The notes under the pieces are model-generated. The model worked only from the letters and a program-made list of their open reading frames with translations. It searched no databases and had not been told where the DNA came from. A DNA stretch of 64,000 nt from Verrucomicrobiia bacterium (lineage in GTDB: Bacteria; Verrucomicrobiota; Verrucomicrobiia; Limisphaerales; CAIMTB01): contig JAHCBA010000006.1 of assembly GCA_019634625.1 (NCBI GenBank), positions 1-64,000 of the forward strand, read 5' to 3'. Shown here piece after piece: positions 16,095 to 61,950 of this stretch. Numbering within the stretch: position 1 is the first letter of the stretch; every line of letters starts with the position of its first letter. Position numbers and translations under genes: made by a program.

Positions 16095-16147
16095 CCCGTC
16101 GGTTGATCCGTGGGACTGTGGTCGGGCTCCGAGGCTCCCATGGACTG

Positions 16148-16308
16148 GTGCATCCCCAAATTGTCGGTGAGGAGGCAGCAAATCGGAGGGACGAGCTCCG
16201 CGAGTCCTCATCCCAACGCTGCACACCGTTGCGGCCTCGTGGAACTCGGCCCTCCGAGGCGATGCTTCGCGAAGTTCGTGCCTCGACCCACGACTCCGGG
16301 ATGTACGG
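16148..16308 (+). repeat. dispersed intergenic palindromic element, copy A
   Basis: About 160 bp with inverted ends (GTGCATCCC at the left, GGGATGTAC at the right). It has the family core GGAGGGACGAGCTCCGCGAG at 16186-16205 and the opposing CCCTCCGA near 16252. It sits between DUF819 and the TMEM14 gene, and its right end is only about 20 bp before the TMEM14 promoter. Confidence 0.85.
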
Positions 16309-17603: not shown

Positions 17604-17780
17604 GGTGCCTCCCGGAGTTGCAGGTGAGGAGGCAGCAAATCGGAGGGACGAGCTCTGCGAGTCCTCAACCCCATGCTCCACACCGTTGCGGCCTCGTGGA
17701 ACCCGGCCCTCCGAATTCACCCCTCAGCCTAAATTCGGAGGGACGAGCTCTGCGAGTCCACAACCCATCGCTCCCCATCG
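17604..17780 (+). repeat. dispersed intergenic palindromic element, copy B (variant with a duplicated core)
   Basis: The left end GGTGCCTCCCGGAGTTG and the core at 17641 match the other copies. The usual right arm is replaced by a linker and a second core (GGAGGGACGAGCTCTGCGAG) at 17737-17756. Copy E has the same arrangement, so this is a subclass rather than random decay. It lies between divergent def and esterase genes. Confidence 0.8.
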
Positions 17781-21802: not shown

Positions 21803-22315
21803 ATGCTCTGCAGCATCTGCCAGAAGAACGAAGCGAAGGTGCATCTGACACAGATTGTCGATGACAAGATGCAGAAGGTGGATCTGTGCGAGGCCTGCTC
21901 CAAGGCCAAGGGCGTCACCGATCCAGCCGGTTTTTCCCTCGCCGATCTCCTGCTCGGCCTCGGGGCGGCCCAGGACGGCGGCGAAAACCGCCCCACCCCC
22001 AAGGCCGGCGAACTCTCCTGTCCCGGGTGCGGCCTTTCCCAGGCGGATTTCAAGAAGTCCGGCCGCTTCGGCTGCCCGCAGTGCTACACCACGTTCGCCG
22101 AAGGACTGCCCGGCATGCTCAAGACGATGCACAAGGGCCTCCGCCACATCGGCAAAGTTCCCCAAACCCACCGGCCCAAGCGCGATCCCGCCGACCTCCT
22201 CCGGCAACTCAACCGGCGCCTCGAAAAAGCGATCCAAATGGAAAATTTCGAGGAGGCCGCCCAGTTGCGCGATCAGATCCGCGCCCTCAAGCAGCCCGCC
22301 GCCCAGGCGCCGTGA
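21803..22315 (+). CDS. mcsA: McsA-like zinc-finger activator of the arginine kinase McsB
   Basis: 170 residues with four CxxC pairs (Cys3/6, 29/32, 73/76 and 91/94), enough for two zinc-binding knuckles, and a C-terminal UVR motif near residues 128-163 (NRRLEKAIQMENFEEAAQLRD). In Bacillus, McsA binds and activates McsB and helps deliver substrates to ClpC. The next gene starts 3 bp downstream, completing an mcsA-mcsB-clpC operon. Confidence 0.88.
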   Translation: MLCSICQKNEAKVHLTQIVDDKMQKVDLCEACSKAKGVTDPAGFSLADLLLGLGAAQDGGENRPTPKAGELSCPGCGLSQADFKKSGRFGCPQCYTTFAEGLPGMLKTMHKGLRHIGKVPQTHRPKRDPADLLRQLNRRLEKAIQMENFEEAAQLRDQIRALKQPAAQAP

Positions 22316-22318
22316 TCC

Positions 22319-23460
22319 ATGTCCAACGACCTCCATTCCTTCCTCAGCCTCCCGGCCGATACCGTCCGCAAGACCGGGCCGATGGACCAGATTGTCCTCT
22401 CGTCCCGGGTCCGGCTCGCCCGCAATATCCAGGGCTTCGCCTTCCCCGGTTGGGCCAAGAAATCCGAACGCGTCCGCTCCCTCGACATTATCCGCAGCGC
22501 CGTCGAGCAGGTGCCGGTGATGACCAGCGGCTTCGCCGATTCCATGGACAGCCTGTCCTCCATGGACAAGCAGATCCTCGTCGAACGCCACCTCATCAGC
22601 CGCGAACACGCCGCCAAGAGCGGTGGCAGCGGTCTCGTCCTCGACCGCCTCGAGTCCCTCAGCGTCATGATCAATGAGGAGGACCACCTGCGGATGCAGT
22701 CGCTCCGCCCCGGCCTCCAGCTCCGCGAGGCCTGGCAGGCGGTCGATGAAATGGACAGTGCCCTCGAGGCCCGCCTCCCCTACGCCTTCTCCCCCGATCT
22801 TGGCTTCCTCACCGCCTGCCCCACCAACGTCGGCACAGGCATCCGCGTCAGTGCCATGCTGCACCTGCCCGGATTGGTCCTGACCGAACTCATCAATTCC
22901 ATCGTCCAGTCCGTCAACAAGCTGGGGCTCGCGGTCCGCGGCCTCTACGGCGAAGGCACCGAGGCCCTCGGCAACATCTTCCAGGTCTCCAACCAGATGA
23001 CCCTCGGCGAATCCGAACTCGAGATCGTCGAACGCCTCAGCAAGGTCGTCCACCAGATGATCGAGCACGAGCTCAATGCCCGGCAGAAGCTCCTCGAGGA
23101 GAAACCCAAGGTCCTCTTCAACCATGTCGGCCGCGCCTTCGGCATCCTTGCCAATGCCCATAGCATCTCGTCCAAGGAGGCCATGAACCTCCTGTCCCTG
23201 GTGCGCCTGGCCCACGACTTCAAGATGTTCCCCACGGTCCCCAGGGCCCTCTTCGACGAACTCCTCCTGGTCACCCAGCCGGCCCACCTCCAGCGGGCCC
23301 AGGCCGGCAAGCTCGCCGCCGACGAACGCGATATCCGGCGGGCCGATCTCCTCCGCGACCGGCTGGCCGAGACGCCACGCCCGGTGACCGCCCAGTTGAC
23401 GCCGCCGGAAGCCGGTGACATTACACCCCCTCCGGAACCCCCCCCGGCAAACGATGCTTT

Positions 23461-23464
<4 letters not shown>
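22319..23464 (+). CDS. mcsB: protein arginine kinase
   Basis: 381 residues of the phosphagen-kinase fold. SSRVRLARNI near residue 28 and the active-site TACPTNVGTG with Cys167 are present; the cysteine falls at the position known for B. subtilis McsB. McsB phosphorylates arginines of damaged proteins, marking them for ClpC-ClpP. The last ~35 residues are proline-rich and less typical. The stop overlaps the clpC start by 4 bp. The ctsR repressor gene that heads the Firmicutes operon is absent. Confidence 0.92.
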
Positions 23465-25977
<2,513 letters not shown>

Positions 25978-26043: not shown

Positions 26044-27204
26044 ATGCCCGGGTCGATCAAAGCCTTCGCCCAGGCTCTCCTTCCTCACCTTCAATCGGTC
26101 CCGGCAAGCCTCGACTTCGAGGCCATGGCCCTCGGCCTGTTCCGGCTTCAGTTCGATCGCAACCCCGCCTACCGCCGCCTTTGCCTCGCCGACGGTGTCC
26201 AGCCCGATCATGTCCCGTCCTGGGACGCCATCCCCGCCGTCCCCACGGTGGCCTTCAAGGAGATGGCCATGACGTCTCTTCCGGAAGCCGACCGCACACA
26301 CTGGTTCCTCTCCAGCGGCACCACCCGCCAGGAATCCAGCCGCCATTATCATCACGCGGACTCGCTCTCCCTCTACGAAGCCGCCGCAACAGCCTGGTTC
26401 ACACCCCATCTGATGGGCGGGCTGGCGGCACCTCTCCCCTCCCGTCAGCGCTTCCATTTCCTTTCCCTCACGCCGTCTCCGGATCAGGCGCCCCATTCGT
26501 CGCTCGTGCACATGATCGCCCGCGTGGCGCCTGAGCATCGCGCTGGTCCCACCCGTTTTCTCGGGACGCTGGCCTCCGATGGGTCGTGGGAACTGGACCC
26601 CTCCCGCTGTCACGACGCCCTCCGGGAGTACGACGCCTCTGCCAACCCGGTCCTGGTCCTGGGAACCGCATTCCACTTCGTCCATTGGCTTGAAGCCGGT
26701 CCGCCCCGCGGCGTCCCGCCCTCGTTGCCGCCCGGCTCGCGCGTCATGGAGACGGGCGGGTACAAGGGCCGCTCGCGGGTTCTGGACAAGGCAGCTCTTC
26801 ACCAGGCCATTTCAGAACTTACCGGGATCCCACCCAGCCACATCGTCAGCGAGTACGGCATGAGCGAACTCAGCTCCCAGGCCTACGACCACGCGGTTCC
26901 GGAACCAGGCCAACCCGATCCCGGTCCTCCCCCCAACCAACGGTCGCTGCGCTTTCCTCCCTGGGTCCGGATTCGCGTCATCTCCCCCGAGCACGGCCGG
27001 GAAGTCGCGCCCGGCGAAATCGGCCGCCTGCGCATCTGGGACCTCGCCAACGTCTGGTCGGTCATGGCCATCCAGACCGACGACCTTGCCGTCCGAACCG
27101 CGGACGGCTTCCGCCTGGCGGGCCGCGCCCCGGCGGCACCCCCTCGAGGCTGCTCCCTCATGGTCCAACCCGCTCCCGTTCCGCCCCCCCGCGGGAATCG
27201 GTAG
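26044..27204 (+). CDS. LuxE-like acyl-protein synthetase (adenylate-forming)
   Basis: 386 residues of the acyl-protein synthetase family. The adenylation signature is SSGTTRQESSR (90-100), followed by a METGGYKGRSR segment near residue 238 and an EYGMSELSSQ segment near residue 277, which is the A5-like motif of adenylating enzymes. LuxE activates a fatty acid as acyl-AMP and transfers the acyl group via its own cysteine to LuxC. The LuxC-like gene follows after 273 bp that hold repeat copy C. No luxD or luciferase genes are present, so the product is probably an aldehyde or alcohol for another purpose. The final ~20 residues are proline-rich. Confidence 0.82.
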   Translation: MPGSIKAFAQALLPHLQSVPASLDFEAMALGLFRLQFDRNPAYRRLCLADGVQPDHVPSWDAIPAVPTVAFKEMAMTSLPEADRTHWFLSSGTTRQESSRHYHHADSLSLYEAAATAWFTPHLMGGLAAPLPSRQRFHFLSLTPSPDQAPHSSLVHMIARVAPEHRAGPTRFLGTLASDGSWELDPSRCHDALREYDASANPVLVLGTAFHFVHWLEAGPPRGVPPSLPPGSRVMETGGYKGRSRVLDKAALHQAISELTGIPPSHIVSEYGMSELSSQAYDHAVPEPGQPDPGPPPNQRSLRFPPWVRIRVISPEHGREVAPGEIGRLRIWDLANVWSVMAIQTDDLAVRTADGFRLAGRAPAAPPRGCSLMVQPAPVPPPRGNR

Positions 27205-27260
27205 CGCAGACGGAGCATGCCCGATTCGGCCTCCGCCCGTCGCCTCGGCTCGGCTGCGGC

Positions 27261-27422
27261 GGTGCATGCCGGAGTTGTGGGTGGGGAGGCAGCGGATCGG
27301 AGGGACGAGCTCCGCGAGTCCTCCATCCATGGCACCACTCCGCTGCGGCCTCGTGGAACTCGGCCCTCCGAGACGACGCTTCGCGAAATTCGCACCTCTC
27401 CCCACAACTTCGGGATGCACGA
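27261..27422 (+). repeat. dispersed intergenic palindromic element, copy C
   Basis: Inverted ends GGTGCATGCCGGAGTTGTGG and CCACAACTTCGGGATGCAC, core at 27299 and opposing CCCTCCGA near 27364. It fills most of the 273-bp space between the LuxE-like and LuxC-like genes, ending 55 bp before the latter. Confidence 0.85.
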
Positions 27423-27477
27423 CGGCCACGGGAGCACGCCGGTTGCCCGGCCGAACCCTGTCCGACAGGATGGGCCC

Positions 27478-28854
27478 GTGCAGTTGCCCAATTATTTCCT
27501 GGCCGATCTGCCACCCGAGCATCCGCTTGCCACCGGCCTCGTCACCGAGGCCTGCCAGACGCTCAAGCGCAATCGGGAACGCTTTCTCCTGCCCCGGAGC
27601 ACCGACGCCATCATCCAGGCCCTGGTCGAAGTCGGCCGTCTGTGGACGGCCCCGCATTCGCCATGGATGGCCCTGGCCCTGGAGCAGGGCCCGGCCGCCA
27701 CCGGGTTTTCCCGCGAACTCCTGGCGGATGGACTCCAGCGGTACTTCCGCCGCTGGACCCCCCGCGCTCTCCAGAACCTCGTACTGCAGGAGTTCGCTCA
27801 TCCCCAGCGCCTCGATCGGCTGGTCGCCAACGACGCCGAGCACATCGCCGCCATTTCCGCCCGCGTCCGCGGACCCGAACTCCTCCTGCACATCACCGCG
27901 GGCATCCTGCCCACCCCCGTCTTCACCGCCATCCTTCATGGACTTCTCGTGCGCTCCGCCCAGTTCGTGAAGTGCGCCTCCCGCTCCTCCCTGCTCCCAC
28001 GCCTCTTCGCCCATTCCCTCCGCGAACTGGAACCCAAGCTCGCCGCCTGCCTCGAGATCGCCGAATGGCCGGGGGGACGCGGACTTCCCGCGGAATCCGA
28101 ACTCCTCCAGGAAATTGATTGCGCCGTCGCCTCGGGCTCGGACGAGACGATCGAGGCCATCCGGCACGCCCTCCCGTCCCGGGTCCGTTTCCTTGCCCAC
28201 GGGCACCGCGTCAGCGCCGGCTACATCGCCCGGGAATCCCTGAACCCTGCCGAACTCCCCGCCACCCTCGAATCCGCGGCCCGCGATGTGGCGGCCTGGG
28301 ACCAGCTCGGCTGCCTGTCCCCCCAGGTGCTCTATGTCGAAACCGGCGGCCTGATCCCTCCCGAGGATTTCGCCGCCGAACTGGCCGGAGCGCTGGACCG
28401 CCTGGAACAGCGTTTGCCCCGCGGCCCCCTCGATCCGGCCACTTCCGCCGCCATTGCCCAGCGACGCGACTATTACCGCATCCGCGCCGCCTCCGGAGAC
28501 CACACCCGCTGCTGGAGCAGCAAGGATTCCACGGCCTGGACGGTGATCTACGAAGCCGATGCCCGGTTTCAACCCTCCTGCCTGCACAGGTTCATCCTCG
28601 TCAAGGCCGTCGACACCCTTGAAGAATGCCTGCACCAGGCCGAAATGATCCGCGGTCAGTGGTCCACCGTCGGTCTTGCCGCCAACGGCGTCCGCATCGA
28701 GGAACTTGCCCGGAGCTTCGCCGACTGGGGCATCACCCGGATCTGTCCGCTTGGGACCATGCAGGACCCGCCCCTGACCTGGCGTCACGATGGTCGCCCG
28801 GTCCTGGGCGATCTCGTCACCTGGACCACCCATGAACGGCCCCTCGACCCCTGA
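27478..28854 (+). CDS. LuxC-like acyl-CoA/acyl-protein reductase (fatty aldehyde forming)
   Basis: 458 residues from a GTG start ([17 protein letters not shown]). An in-frame ATG 63 bp upstream lies in the repeat and was rejected. The LuxC family is seen in [23 protein letters not shown] near residue 135 (given in parts), in the nucleophile Cys279 of DQLGCLSPQ, and in the C-terminal [16 protein letters not shown]. It reduces a thioester-bound acyl group to an aldehyde with NADPH. The partner synthetase is directly upstream, so the two form a fatty-acid reductase couple without luciferase. Confidence 0.87.
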
Positions 28855-28916: not shown

Positions 28917-29279
28917 ATGACCATTGAACTCCGCAAGTCCTTCCAGTTCGAGGCAGCCCACCTCCTCCCCCACCTGCCTGCCGATCACAAATGCCGCCGC
29001 CTCCACGGGCACAGCTTTGTCTGCGAAGTCGCCGTCAGCGGCCCCTGTCATCCCCACCTCGGCTGGGTGATGGACTACGCCGACATCAAGGCCGCCTTCC
29101 GTCCCCTCTGGGAACGCCTCGATCACCGCTACCTCAACGAGATCCCCGGCCTCGAAAACCCCACCAGCGAGAACATCGCCATCTGGATCTGGCGGGAATT
29201 GAAGCCGCACCTCCCGGCCCTCGTCGAAGTCGCCGTTGCTGAAACCTGCACCGCCCGCTGCATCTACCGGGGACCTTGA
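28917..29279 (+). CDS. queD: 6-carboxy-5,6,7,8-tetrahydropterin synthase (6-pyruvoyltetrahydropterin synthase family)
   Basis: 120 residues. Zinc ligands His15, His30 and His32 and the catalytic Cys26 form the family's CxxxHGH pattern; the second half has DHRYLNEI near residue 70, ENPTSENIA near residue 79 and the [10 protein letters not shown] end. QueD makes carboxytetrahydropterin from dihydroneopterin triphosphate in the queuosine pathway. No queC, queE or folE is adjacent, so a tetrahydrobiopterin-type role is a weaker alternative. Confidence 0.9.
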
Positions 29280-33682: not shown

Positions 33683-33796
33683 GAGTCGTTTTTGGGTCGG
33701 CGCCAACCCGCCTCCCATCCCTTCAGGGCGGCACGTCGGCGAGCCGCTAGGCTGATTCACCGGGAAACATCCTCCAAGTCCGGAATTTCCAGCCCC

Positions 33797-33948
33797 GATG
33801 GGGTCGGTAACGGGCCAGCGAATTGGAGGGACGAGCTCCGCGAGTCCTCAACCCAACGCTCCACACCGTTGCGGCCTCGTGGAACCCGGCCCTCCGAAGC
33901 GCCGCTTGGCGGAATTCGCGCCTTTACCCACAACTCCGGGATGCACGG
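33797..33948 (+). repeat. dispersed intergenic palindromic element, copy D (left end decayed)
   Basis: The core is at 33824, the opposing CCCTCCGA near 33890, and the right end CCACAACTCCGGGATGCAC is intact. The left inverted end is not recognisable. It lies between the TMEM14 gene and the 3' end of oxyR. Confidence 0.8.
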
Positions 33949-33970
33949 CGGACCGTCCCGCCCATCGGAT

Positions 33971-57209: not shown

Positions 57210-57388
57210 GGTGCATCTCCGAGTTCTGGTTGAGGAGGCCGTGAATCGGAGGGACGAGCTCTGCGAGTCCGCAGTCCATGGCACCCCTCCCTTGCGGCGT
57301 CGTGGAACTCGGCCCTCCGAGTTCACACCCCCGCTTCACCTTTCGGAGGGACGAGCTCCGCGGGTCCACAATCCATTTTCGGCAGCAT
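57210..57388 (+). repeat. dispersed intergenic palindromic element, copy E (variant with a duplicated core)
   Basis: Left end GGTGCATCTCCGAGTTCTGG, first core at 57247 and second core at 57343, as in copy B, with a similar linker (GTTCACACC...CACC). The right end is not recognisable. It occupies the middle of the 473-bp divergent gap between typA and the sigma-factor gene. The rest of that gap shows nothing I can name. Confidence 0.8.
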
Positions 57389-60563: not shown

Positions 60564-60723
60564 GGTGCATCCCGGAGTTGTGGGTGAGGAGGCAGCGAAT
60601 CGGAGGGACGAGCTCCGCGACTCCACAACCCAGCGCTCCACACCCTTGGGGCCTCGTGGAACCCGGCCCTCCGAAGCGCCGCTTCGCGGAGTTCGCACCT
60701 TCCCCACAAGTCCGGGATGCACG
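60564..60723 (+). repeat. dispersed intergenic palindromic element, copy F (best-preserved ends)
   Basis: GTGCATCCCGGAGTTGTGG begins at 60566, and its near-perfect complement CCACAAGTCCGGGATGCAC ends at 60722. The core is at 60601 and the opposing CCCTCCGA at 60667, with an additional small hairpin GAAGCG-CC-GCTTC near 60674. It separates the intact and broken prepilin genes. Confidence 0.88.
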
Positions 60724-60780
60724 GAAATTCTTCTTCGCGTCGGGTTCAGCGCCGCTTGAACGGGTCAAACGCCCGGATCC

Positions 60781-61732: not shown

Positions 61733-61789
61733 CCGATGACTGTCGCAAATCGAAGGGGACGGTCAATCCGTGCGGAAGCAGGCCCTCCG

Positions 61790-61950
61790 CGCATCCCGAA
61801 GCTGTGGGGAGAGGTGCGACTTTCGCGAAGCGCCGTTTCGGAGGGCCGGGTTCCACGGGGCCGCAGCGGAGTGGTGCCATGGATTGAGGACTCGCAGAGC
61901 TCGTCCCTCCGATTTGCTGCCTCCTCACCGACAACTTGGGGATGCACCGG
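61790..61950 (-). repeat. dispersed intergenic palindromic element, copy G (inverted relative to the others)
   Basis: Read on the minus strand it begins GGTGCATCCCCAAGTTGTCG and ends CCACAGCTTCGGGATGC, with core and opposing arms as in copies A and C. It is the only copy in reverse orientation. It lies between the divergent 67-residue gene and the ROK kinase gene. Confidence 0.85.

Follow-up and report, generated by a model that had tools for sequence, protein, structure and literature searches.

In the bioluminescence protein LuxE the acyl carrier is a C-terminal cysteine, and LuxE has been solved together with its reductase partner LuxC in the fatty acid reductase complex of Photobacterium phosphoreum (PDB 7xc6). 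Activation of an acid, its reduction and a transamination follow one another in the ArgB-ArgC-ArgD and LysZ-LysY-LysJ pathways. In the canonical synthesis of 7-aminomethyl-7-deazaguanine (preQ1), the precursor of the tRNA base queuosine, 7-carboxy-7-deazaguanine (CDG) is first carried to a nitrile, preQ0, and the nitrile is then reduced to the amine. The enzymes of this sequence are QueE, which makes CDG, QueC, which makes preQ0, and QueF, which makes preQ1, as outlined in two publications (PMC11130926, PMC5372724). Here we consider a LuxE-LuxC gene pair on contig JAHCBA010000006.1 of a Verrucomicrobiia bacterium (order Limisphaerales, assembly GCA_019634625.1), of which positions 1 to 64,000 were analysed as a whole and are called the window. 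The pair very probably serves the synthesis of preQ1 from CDG. Its genes and their presumed partners are listed below; AT3 is our name for the class-III aminotransferase found with queE, and in the labels used throughout G stands for a genome (G000 being the window's own), L for a fetched locus, f for a family and C39 for a contig of the window's own genome.

26044 to 27204, plus strand: LuxE-like acyl-protein synthetase (adenylating ligase) of 386 amino acids (PF04443, 35.5 bits, cut-off 24.9, E-value 6.8e-9)
27151 to 27153, plus strand: codon of LuxE Cys370 (GCS motif), predicted to carry the acyl group; all 21 aligned LuxE rows have this cysteine
27478 to 28854, plus strand: LuxC-like acyl-thioester reductase with a GTG start (PF05893, 216.7 bits, cut-off 21, E-value 6.5e-64)
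28312 to 28314, plus strand: codon of LuxC catalytic Cys279 (DQLGCLSP), numbered from GTG 27478
28917 to 29279, plus strand: QueD, 6-carboxytetrahydropterin synthase (TIGR03367, 104.8 bits, cut-off 89.25)
G000:C39:8137-9504 (L117): own-genome AT3, first start codon taken, overlapping queE
C39 9501 to 10325 (L117): own-genome queE, first start codon taken, with a 4-base overlap with AT3

An earlier note on this DNA had described LuxE and LuxC as neighbours with intact motifs and without luciferase, and this description holds: both Pfam families match, the SSGTT motif occupies residues 90-94 of LuxE, Cys279 is in place in LuxC, and the luciferase profile PF00296 finds no match in the assembly at an E-value of 0.001, against 10 of 14 control genomes that do match. 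No luxD was seen among the nine window proteins scanned, and no genome-wide luxD search was made. In the alignments, LuxE Cys370 falls on the cysteine of KGCSL at the end of 7xc6_E, which the LuxE family profile matches over positions 26-355 of 357 (E-value 4.1e-31), and LuxC Cys279 corresponds to the DQQACFST motif of its counterpart in the same complex. This catalytic cysteine is kept in 23 of 25 aligned LuxC rows and lost only in L086 (G139) and L153 (G137). Although the open frame of LuxC extends back to 27217, homologues start at about GTG 27478, and numbering from this codon makes the catalytic cysteine residue 279, as in the earlier note. The AlphaFold model of LuxC (predicted local distance difference test, pLDDT, 81.9) has 7xc6_A as its closest structure (template modelling score 0.75, 18% identity); confidence in the LuxE model is modest (pLDDT 69), and the folds closest to that model, phenylacetate-CoA ligases, give only a hint. 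The genome has a single LuxE match, and one clear LuxC accompanied by two weak LuxC-family matches, one of them just above the Pfam cut-off.

The assembly, which is 97% complete, contains QueD, QueE, TGT and QueA, and QueC and QueF are without a match at an E-value of 0.001; the gap in this genome spans the steps from CDG to preQ1. Among 236 genomes of the class, drawn evenly from a larger group and searched with the LuxC protein, LuxC matches were found in 111, including 41 of the 42 of the window's order (own genome counted). With thresholds of E-value 1e-5 or better for LuxC, 1e-100 for AT3 (fixed before the search) and 1.4e-41 or better for what is called strong QueC, the totals in the 236 were 110 for LuxC, 111 for QueF, 107 for strong QueC and 105 for AT3. 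LuxC and QueF occurred together in 3 genomes, LuxC only in 107, QueF only in 108 and neither in 18, and the genomes in which LuxC meets strong QueC are the same three. AT3 and QueF were never found together (AT3 only in 105, QueF only in 111, neither in 20), and LuxC and AT3 shared 101 genomes (LuxC only in 9, AT3 only in 4, neither in 122). No genome with both LuxC and AT3 has QueF or strong QueC; the 101 that combine LuxC and AT3 without these include 90 that also carry TGT, QueD, QueE and QueA, and the same four genes accompany 97 of the 102 genomes that have QueC and QueF without LuxC or AT3. In the 107 genomes with LuxC and without QueF, TGT is present in 102, and QueD, QueE and QueA in 103 each. 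Both genome types are met within families f23, f24, f33, f36, f37, f44 and f50. When LuxC was shuffled within families, the LuxC-QueF overlap averaged 10.0 against the observed 3 and the LuxC-AT3 overlap 93.3 against the observed 101, with 0 of 20,000 shuffles as low in the former case and 0 of 20,000 as high in the latter.

All three genomes that have both LuxC and QueF are without AT3. Two of them (G139 and G137), both with QueC and QueF, carry LuxC homologues that have lost the catalytic cysteine and have no LuxE nearby, and these are possibly relics or repurposed proteins:

L086 6487 to 7890: LuxC homologue without the catalytic cysteine, queD still adjacent
L153 891 to 2021: LuxC homologue without the catalytic cysteine

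The match in the third genome, G169, is a different and more distant LuxE-LuxC fusion of 857 amino acids with its cysteine intact (L162 460-3033), and G116 carries a similar fusion of 856-857 amino acids, cysteine likewise intact, as its second copy (L163 1919-4489). Weak QueF matches checked in two class genomes were not QueF and belong to FolE (PF01227). In the two Oligoflexus genomes, where QueF was the one searched of QueC, QueF, QueE and AT3, the QueF-family matches were only weak, one lying just above the Pfam cut-off, and both turned out to be GTP cyclohydrolase I (FolE).

The surroundings of LuxC were taken first from 40 additional order genomes and from 20 genomes elsewhere in the class, with more loci added later. 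Linkage was counted from profile labels with one locus per genome, which gave 41 order loci and 38 non-order LuxC loci, and open reading frames (ORFs) were clustered over 73 loci, a few stretches from two collections being counted twice; intergenic gaps were computed from longest-frame starts, so that negative values exaggerate overlap. Key to the function is queD, which begins 62 bp downstream of LuxC, beyond the region the earlier note had taken in, and is the sole PTPS-family match of its genome (PF01242 once, E-value 1e-8). Every one of the 41 order loci has it on the LuxC strand, downstream of LuxC, and 40 of the 41 have LuxE upstream of LuxC, L086 being the exception. ORF clustering placed queD in 44 of the 73 loci, followed by aminotransferases as the next flanking family (10) and by a major facilitator superfamily (MFS) transporter (9), and the adjacency of LuxC and queD persists across 21 families of the order while the flanks are shuffled. 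Outside the order queD adjoins LuxC in 10 of 38 loci (f25, f26, f37, f38 and f44).

Other arrangements bring in queE, AT3 and queA. In the order, AT3 comes directly after queE in 15 of 20 fetched loci; as for the remaining five, AT3 is on the opposite strand in L122, and four have no AT3 locally and carry it elsewhere in the genome. The pair queE-AT3 precedes luxE-luxC in five of eight fetched f27 loci and in the one f31 locus, and the queE of L091 scores 306.7 bits with TIGR04349 (cut-off 300). A complete row queE-AT3-luxE-luxC-queD is found in f25, compact in L138 (6905-11651) and L139 and interrupted by about 3 kb ahead of luxE in L106 and L137, AT3 being on another contig in the other three f25 genomes. 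In L038 queA is the neighbour of LuxE, and in L143 about 1.4 kb separate the two; in Oligoflexus, where LuxE and LuxC form one protein of 693-699 amino acids, queA is the second frame downstream (L045, 366.9 bits, cut-off 324; L046, assigned through ORF clustering).

Aminotransferases of the acetylornithine and gamma-aminobutyrate (GABA) type act on terminal aldehyde or amine groups, and it is with this type that AT3 scores best (PF00202, E-value 1.4e-88). Among solved structures, an amino-acid racemase and GABA transaminases are closest to it in sequence, and the lysine of a G-K-A motif, presumably the one that binds pyridoxal phosphate (PLP), is invariant in 12 of 12 rows. Two class-III aminotransferases near LuxE in L076 and L077 gave AT3-profile scores of only 141 and 127 bits and were excluded from the AT3 evidence; that of L076, when scanned, was BioA.

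The linkage to queD, queE, AT3 and queA, taken together with the exclusion with queC and queF, points to a 7-deazaguanine carboxylate as the substrate. QueD would form 6-carboxytetrahydropterin and QueE CDG, whose carboxylate LuxE would adenylate with ATP and then bind to its Cys370 in thioester linkage. From there LuxC would take over the acyl group on Cys279 and, using NAD(P)H, reduce it to 7-formyl-7-deazaguanine, and AT3, as a class-III PLP aminotransferase, would convert this aldehyde into preQ1, which TGT would place in tRNA, QueA acting next. LuxE, LuxC and AT3 would in this manner stand in for QueC, which turns the acid into the nitrile, and for QueF, which turns the nitrile into the amine, and preQ0 would be bypassed. 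We infer the substrate, the intermediates and every enzymatic step, including aldehyde formation and transamination, from what is directly observed, that is gene content, linkage, mutual exclusion and the conservation of catalytic residues. It is likely, if somewhat less so than the general role of the pair in preQ1 synthesis, that the CDG thioester is turned by a LuxE-LuxC complex or fusion into 7-formyl-7-deazaguanine and on to preQ1, that this is the standard route in more than 40% of the sampled class genomes and recurs in Oligoflexus, and that it has repeatedly been exchanged with QueC and QueF, leaving dead LuxC relics.

Several observations weigh against this proposal. CDG is an electron-rich and poorly electrophilic acid. 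The Fisher value for LuxC against QueF (1.6e-43) ignores phylogeny, as do the Fisher values in general, and is not to be taken as a probability. A QueC match at the Pfam cut-off (22 bits) is present in 162 of 236 genomes, in many of them as a short match inside a frame of 500-700 amino acids, and a divergent, full-length QueC-like protein (E-values 1e-20 to 1e-33) is present in nine genomes that have LuxC and no QueF (G005, G012, G021, G055, G066, G072, G161, G185 and G227, six of them of f27); four such PP-loop proteins that were checked (L167 4739-5398, L168, L169 and L170) fall below the NCBIfam QueC cut-off. Nine LuxC genomes are without AT3 at an E-value of 1e-100 (G007, G066, G072, G078, G131, G137, G139, G169 and G196), comprising the three exceptions with QueF, three assemblies that are 53-80% complete, and G007, G131 and G196. 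Conversely, AT3 occurs without a LuxC match in G030, G045, G168 and G182. Several of the exception assemblies are incomplete, but completeness is 95% or more for G007, G030 and G182. In G030 queE adjoins AT3 (L165 7470-9498) with no LuxE or LuxC within the 9.5 kb examined, perhaps owing to an assembly gap or to the use of another reductase. The genes of the window's own genome are divided between two contigs. LuxE is not near LuxC in seven of 38 non-order loci (L097, L098, L099, L101, L149, L152 and L153), and a second-round LuxE profile found no LuxE in the LuxC surroundings of these seven or of L086. Finally, a search for preQ1 riboswitches at Rfam gathering scores in the window and 26 loci returned only tRNAs.

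The alternative that fares best keeps the substrate and changes the outcome: CDG or a related deazaguanine would be made into another product, such as a DNA base, a metabolite or another tRNA modification, and the preQ1 used by TGT would be imported. The linkage data are identical under both proposals, and the MFS transporter lying between luxE and luxC in nine of 73 loci could be counted in favour of this one. The presence of QueA and TGT in 103 and 102 of the 107 genomes with LuxC and without QueF, however, leads one to expect preQ1 in tRNA, and the reciprocal exclusion with QueC and QueF fits a replacement and not an extra product, which makes this alternative unlikely.

The earlier note had favoured a fatty acid reductase yielding long-chain aldehydes or alcohols for membrane lipids, signals or a polyene or similar natural product. 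The membership in PF04443 and PF05893 agrees with this, as does the Photobacterium LuxC-LuxE fatty acid reductase complex, to which both the sequences and the LuxC model come closest among solved structures. Against it, the proteins stay far below the cut-offs of the fatty-acid equivalogs of NCBIfam, with 45.6 of 550 bits for LuxE (NF052244, long-chain-fatty-acid protein ligase) and 64.6 of 750 bits for LuxC (NF052251, long-chain-fatty-acyl reductase), and neither the linkage to queD, queE, AT3 and queA nor the exclusion with QueC and QueF is expected from a role in lipids. Acyl activation and reduction of a thioester to an aldehyde can be retained from that reading, whereas a role with fatty acids, membrane lipids, signals or polyenes finds no support and was set aside on linkage and profile; as a whole it is very unlikely.

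That LuxE and LuxC reduce the product of QueD, 6-carboxytetrahydropterin, in pterin or folate metabolism accords with the adjacency of QueD in the order and is nevertheless highly improbable: QueE, the consumer of this compound, is present in 103 of the 107 genomes with LuxC and without QueF, the neighbours in f27 and f31 are queE and AT3 and not queD, and the gap from CDG to preQ1 would stay unfilled. That the genes are co-inherited with no functional link, as an old operon handed down within one lineage, can be argued from the relatedness of same-class genomes and the phylogeny-naive Fisher values, but is barely credible given the retention of LuxC-queD amid shuffled flanks over 21 order families, the linkage of the same genes in several different arrangements, the mixed families and within-family shuffles, the Oligoflexus fusion near queA and the loss of the catalytic cysteine in two genomes with QueC and QueF.

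Among the matches listed from the open-licence literature, no title or abstract opening describes a preQ1 route through LuxE, LuxC and AT3. In studies from 2019 and 2024, the scoring of queuosine makers and salvagers requires QueC and QueF among the genes (PMC6593275, PMC11130926); if the proposed route is real, genomes scored as unable to make preQ1 by such criteria can make it. LuxE and LuxC would moreover gain a role in RNA modification, which would help to explain their occurrence in non-luminous bacteria, and another way from a heteroaromatic acid to a primary amine would be at hand.

Several further features of the pair were recorded. Named relatives of LuxE comprise ten uncultured Verrucomicrobiota records (one of them Pedosphaera sp.) and the two Oligoflexus genomes. 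Two of the ten, with LuxE-LuxC on contigs labelled Akkermansia muciniphila (L035 and L043), have only 48-50% identity to the LuxE of the window; this identity and the order-type gene arrangement render the label doubtful, and the contigs are possibly mislabelled bins. LuxE-LuxC fusions of about 693-725 amino acids occur in two class genomes (L096, 8528-10705; L105, 8216-10303) as well as in Oligoflexus (L045, 7794-9875; L046, 7788-9887). The nine loci with an MFS transporter gene between luxE and luxC are L035, L044, L048, L051, L052, L053, L066, L077 and L079, and the transporter may move a queuosine precursor out of or into the cell. Immediately upstream of luxE in the window, at 21803-25977, are genes named by eye as mcsA-, mcsB- and clpC-like, and among the other clustered loci the clpC ORF cluster was seen near LuxE only in L047, L045 and L046. 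A search for LuxC in phages gave no match, and promoter and terminator scans near luxE and luxC found nothing.

Between the two genes, close to the LuxC start as had already been noticed, lies one of seven copies of a repeat (six direct and one inverted, 66-88% alike) identified by repeat comparison in the window:

27260 to 27452 (approximate), no strand assigned: repeat copy of a family of about 160-190 nucleotides, making up most of the LuxC open frame before GTG 27478
16147 to 16307: family copy
17604 to 17764: family copy
33787 to 33954: family copy
57210 to 57370: family copy
60564 to 60724: family copy
61757 to 61949, minus strand: family copy

The copy between luxE and luxC folds strongly as RNA, with a z-score of -4.96 for 27215-27440. 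The gap between luxE and luxC is 273 bp here and 18 bp in the same-genus relative L047, which has no copy at this place; the copy in the window is therefore probably an insertion, and the copies of the family may be mobile.

Compared with described systems, the pair resembles the Lux complex of Photobacterium phosphoreum in both protein families, in the aligned acyl-carrying and catalytic cysteines and in the pairing of the genes. It differs in that its LuxC is 18% identical by structural alignment and both proteins score far below the equivalogs, in that luciferase is lacking, and in its linkage to queuosine genes, an aminotransferase being the proposed user of the aldehyde. With canonical preQ1 synthesis (FolE, QueD, QueE, QueC and QueF) the proposed route shares its start, QueD and QueE, and its end, TGT and QueA, whereas QueC and QueF are absent and the carboxylate would become an amine by way of an aldehyde and not of a nitrile, without preQ0. 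The chemical logic is that of the ArgB-ArgC-ArgD and LysZ-LysY-LysJ pathways, and AT3 is a class-III aminotransferase, as are ArgD and LysJ; in contrast to those pathways, activation here would proceed through an adenylate and a protein thioester instead of an acyl phosphate, and the substrate would be a purine-like aromatic compound.

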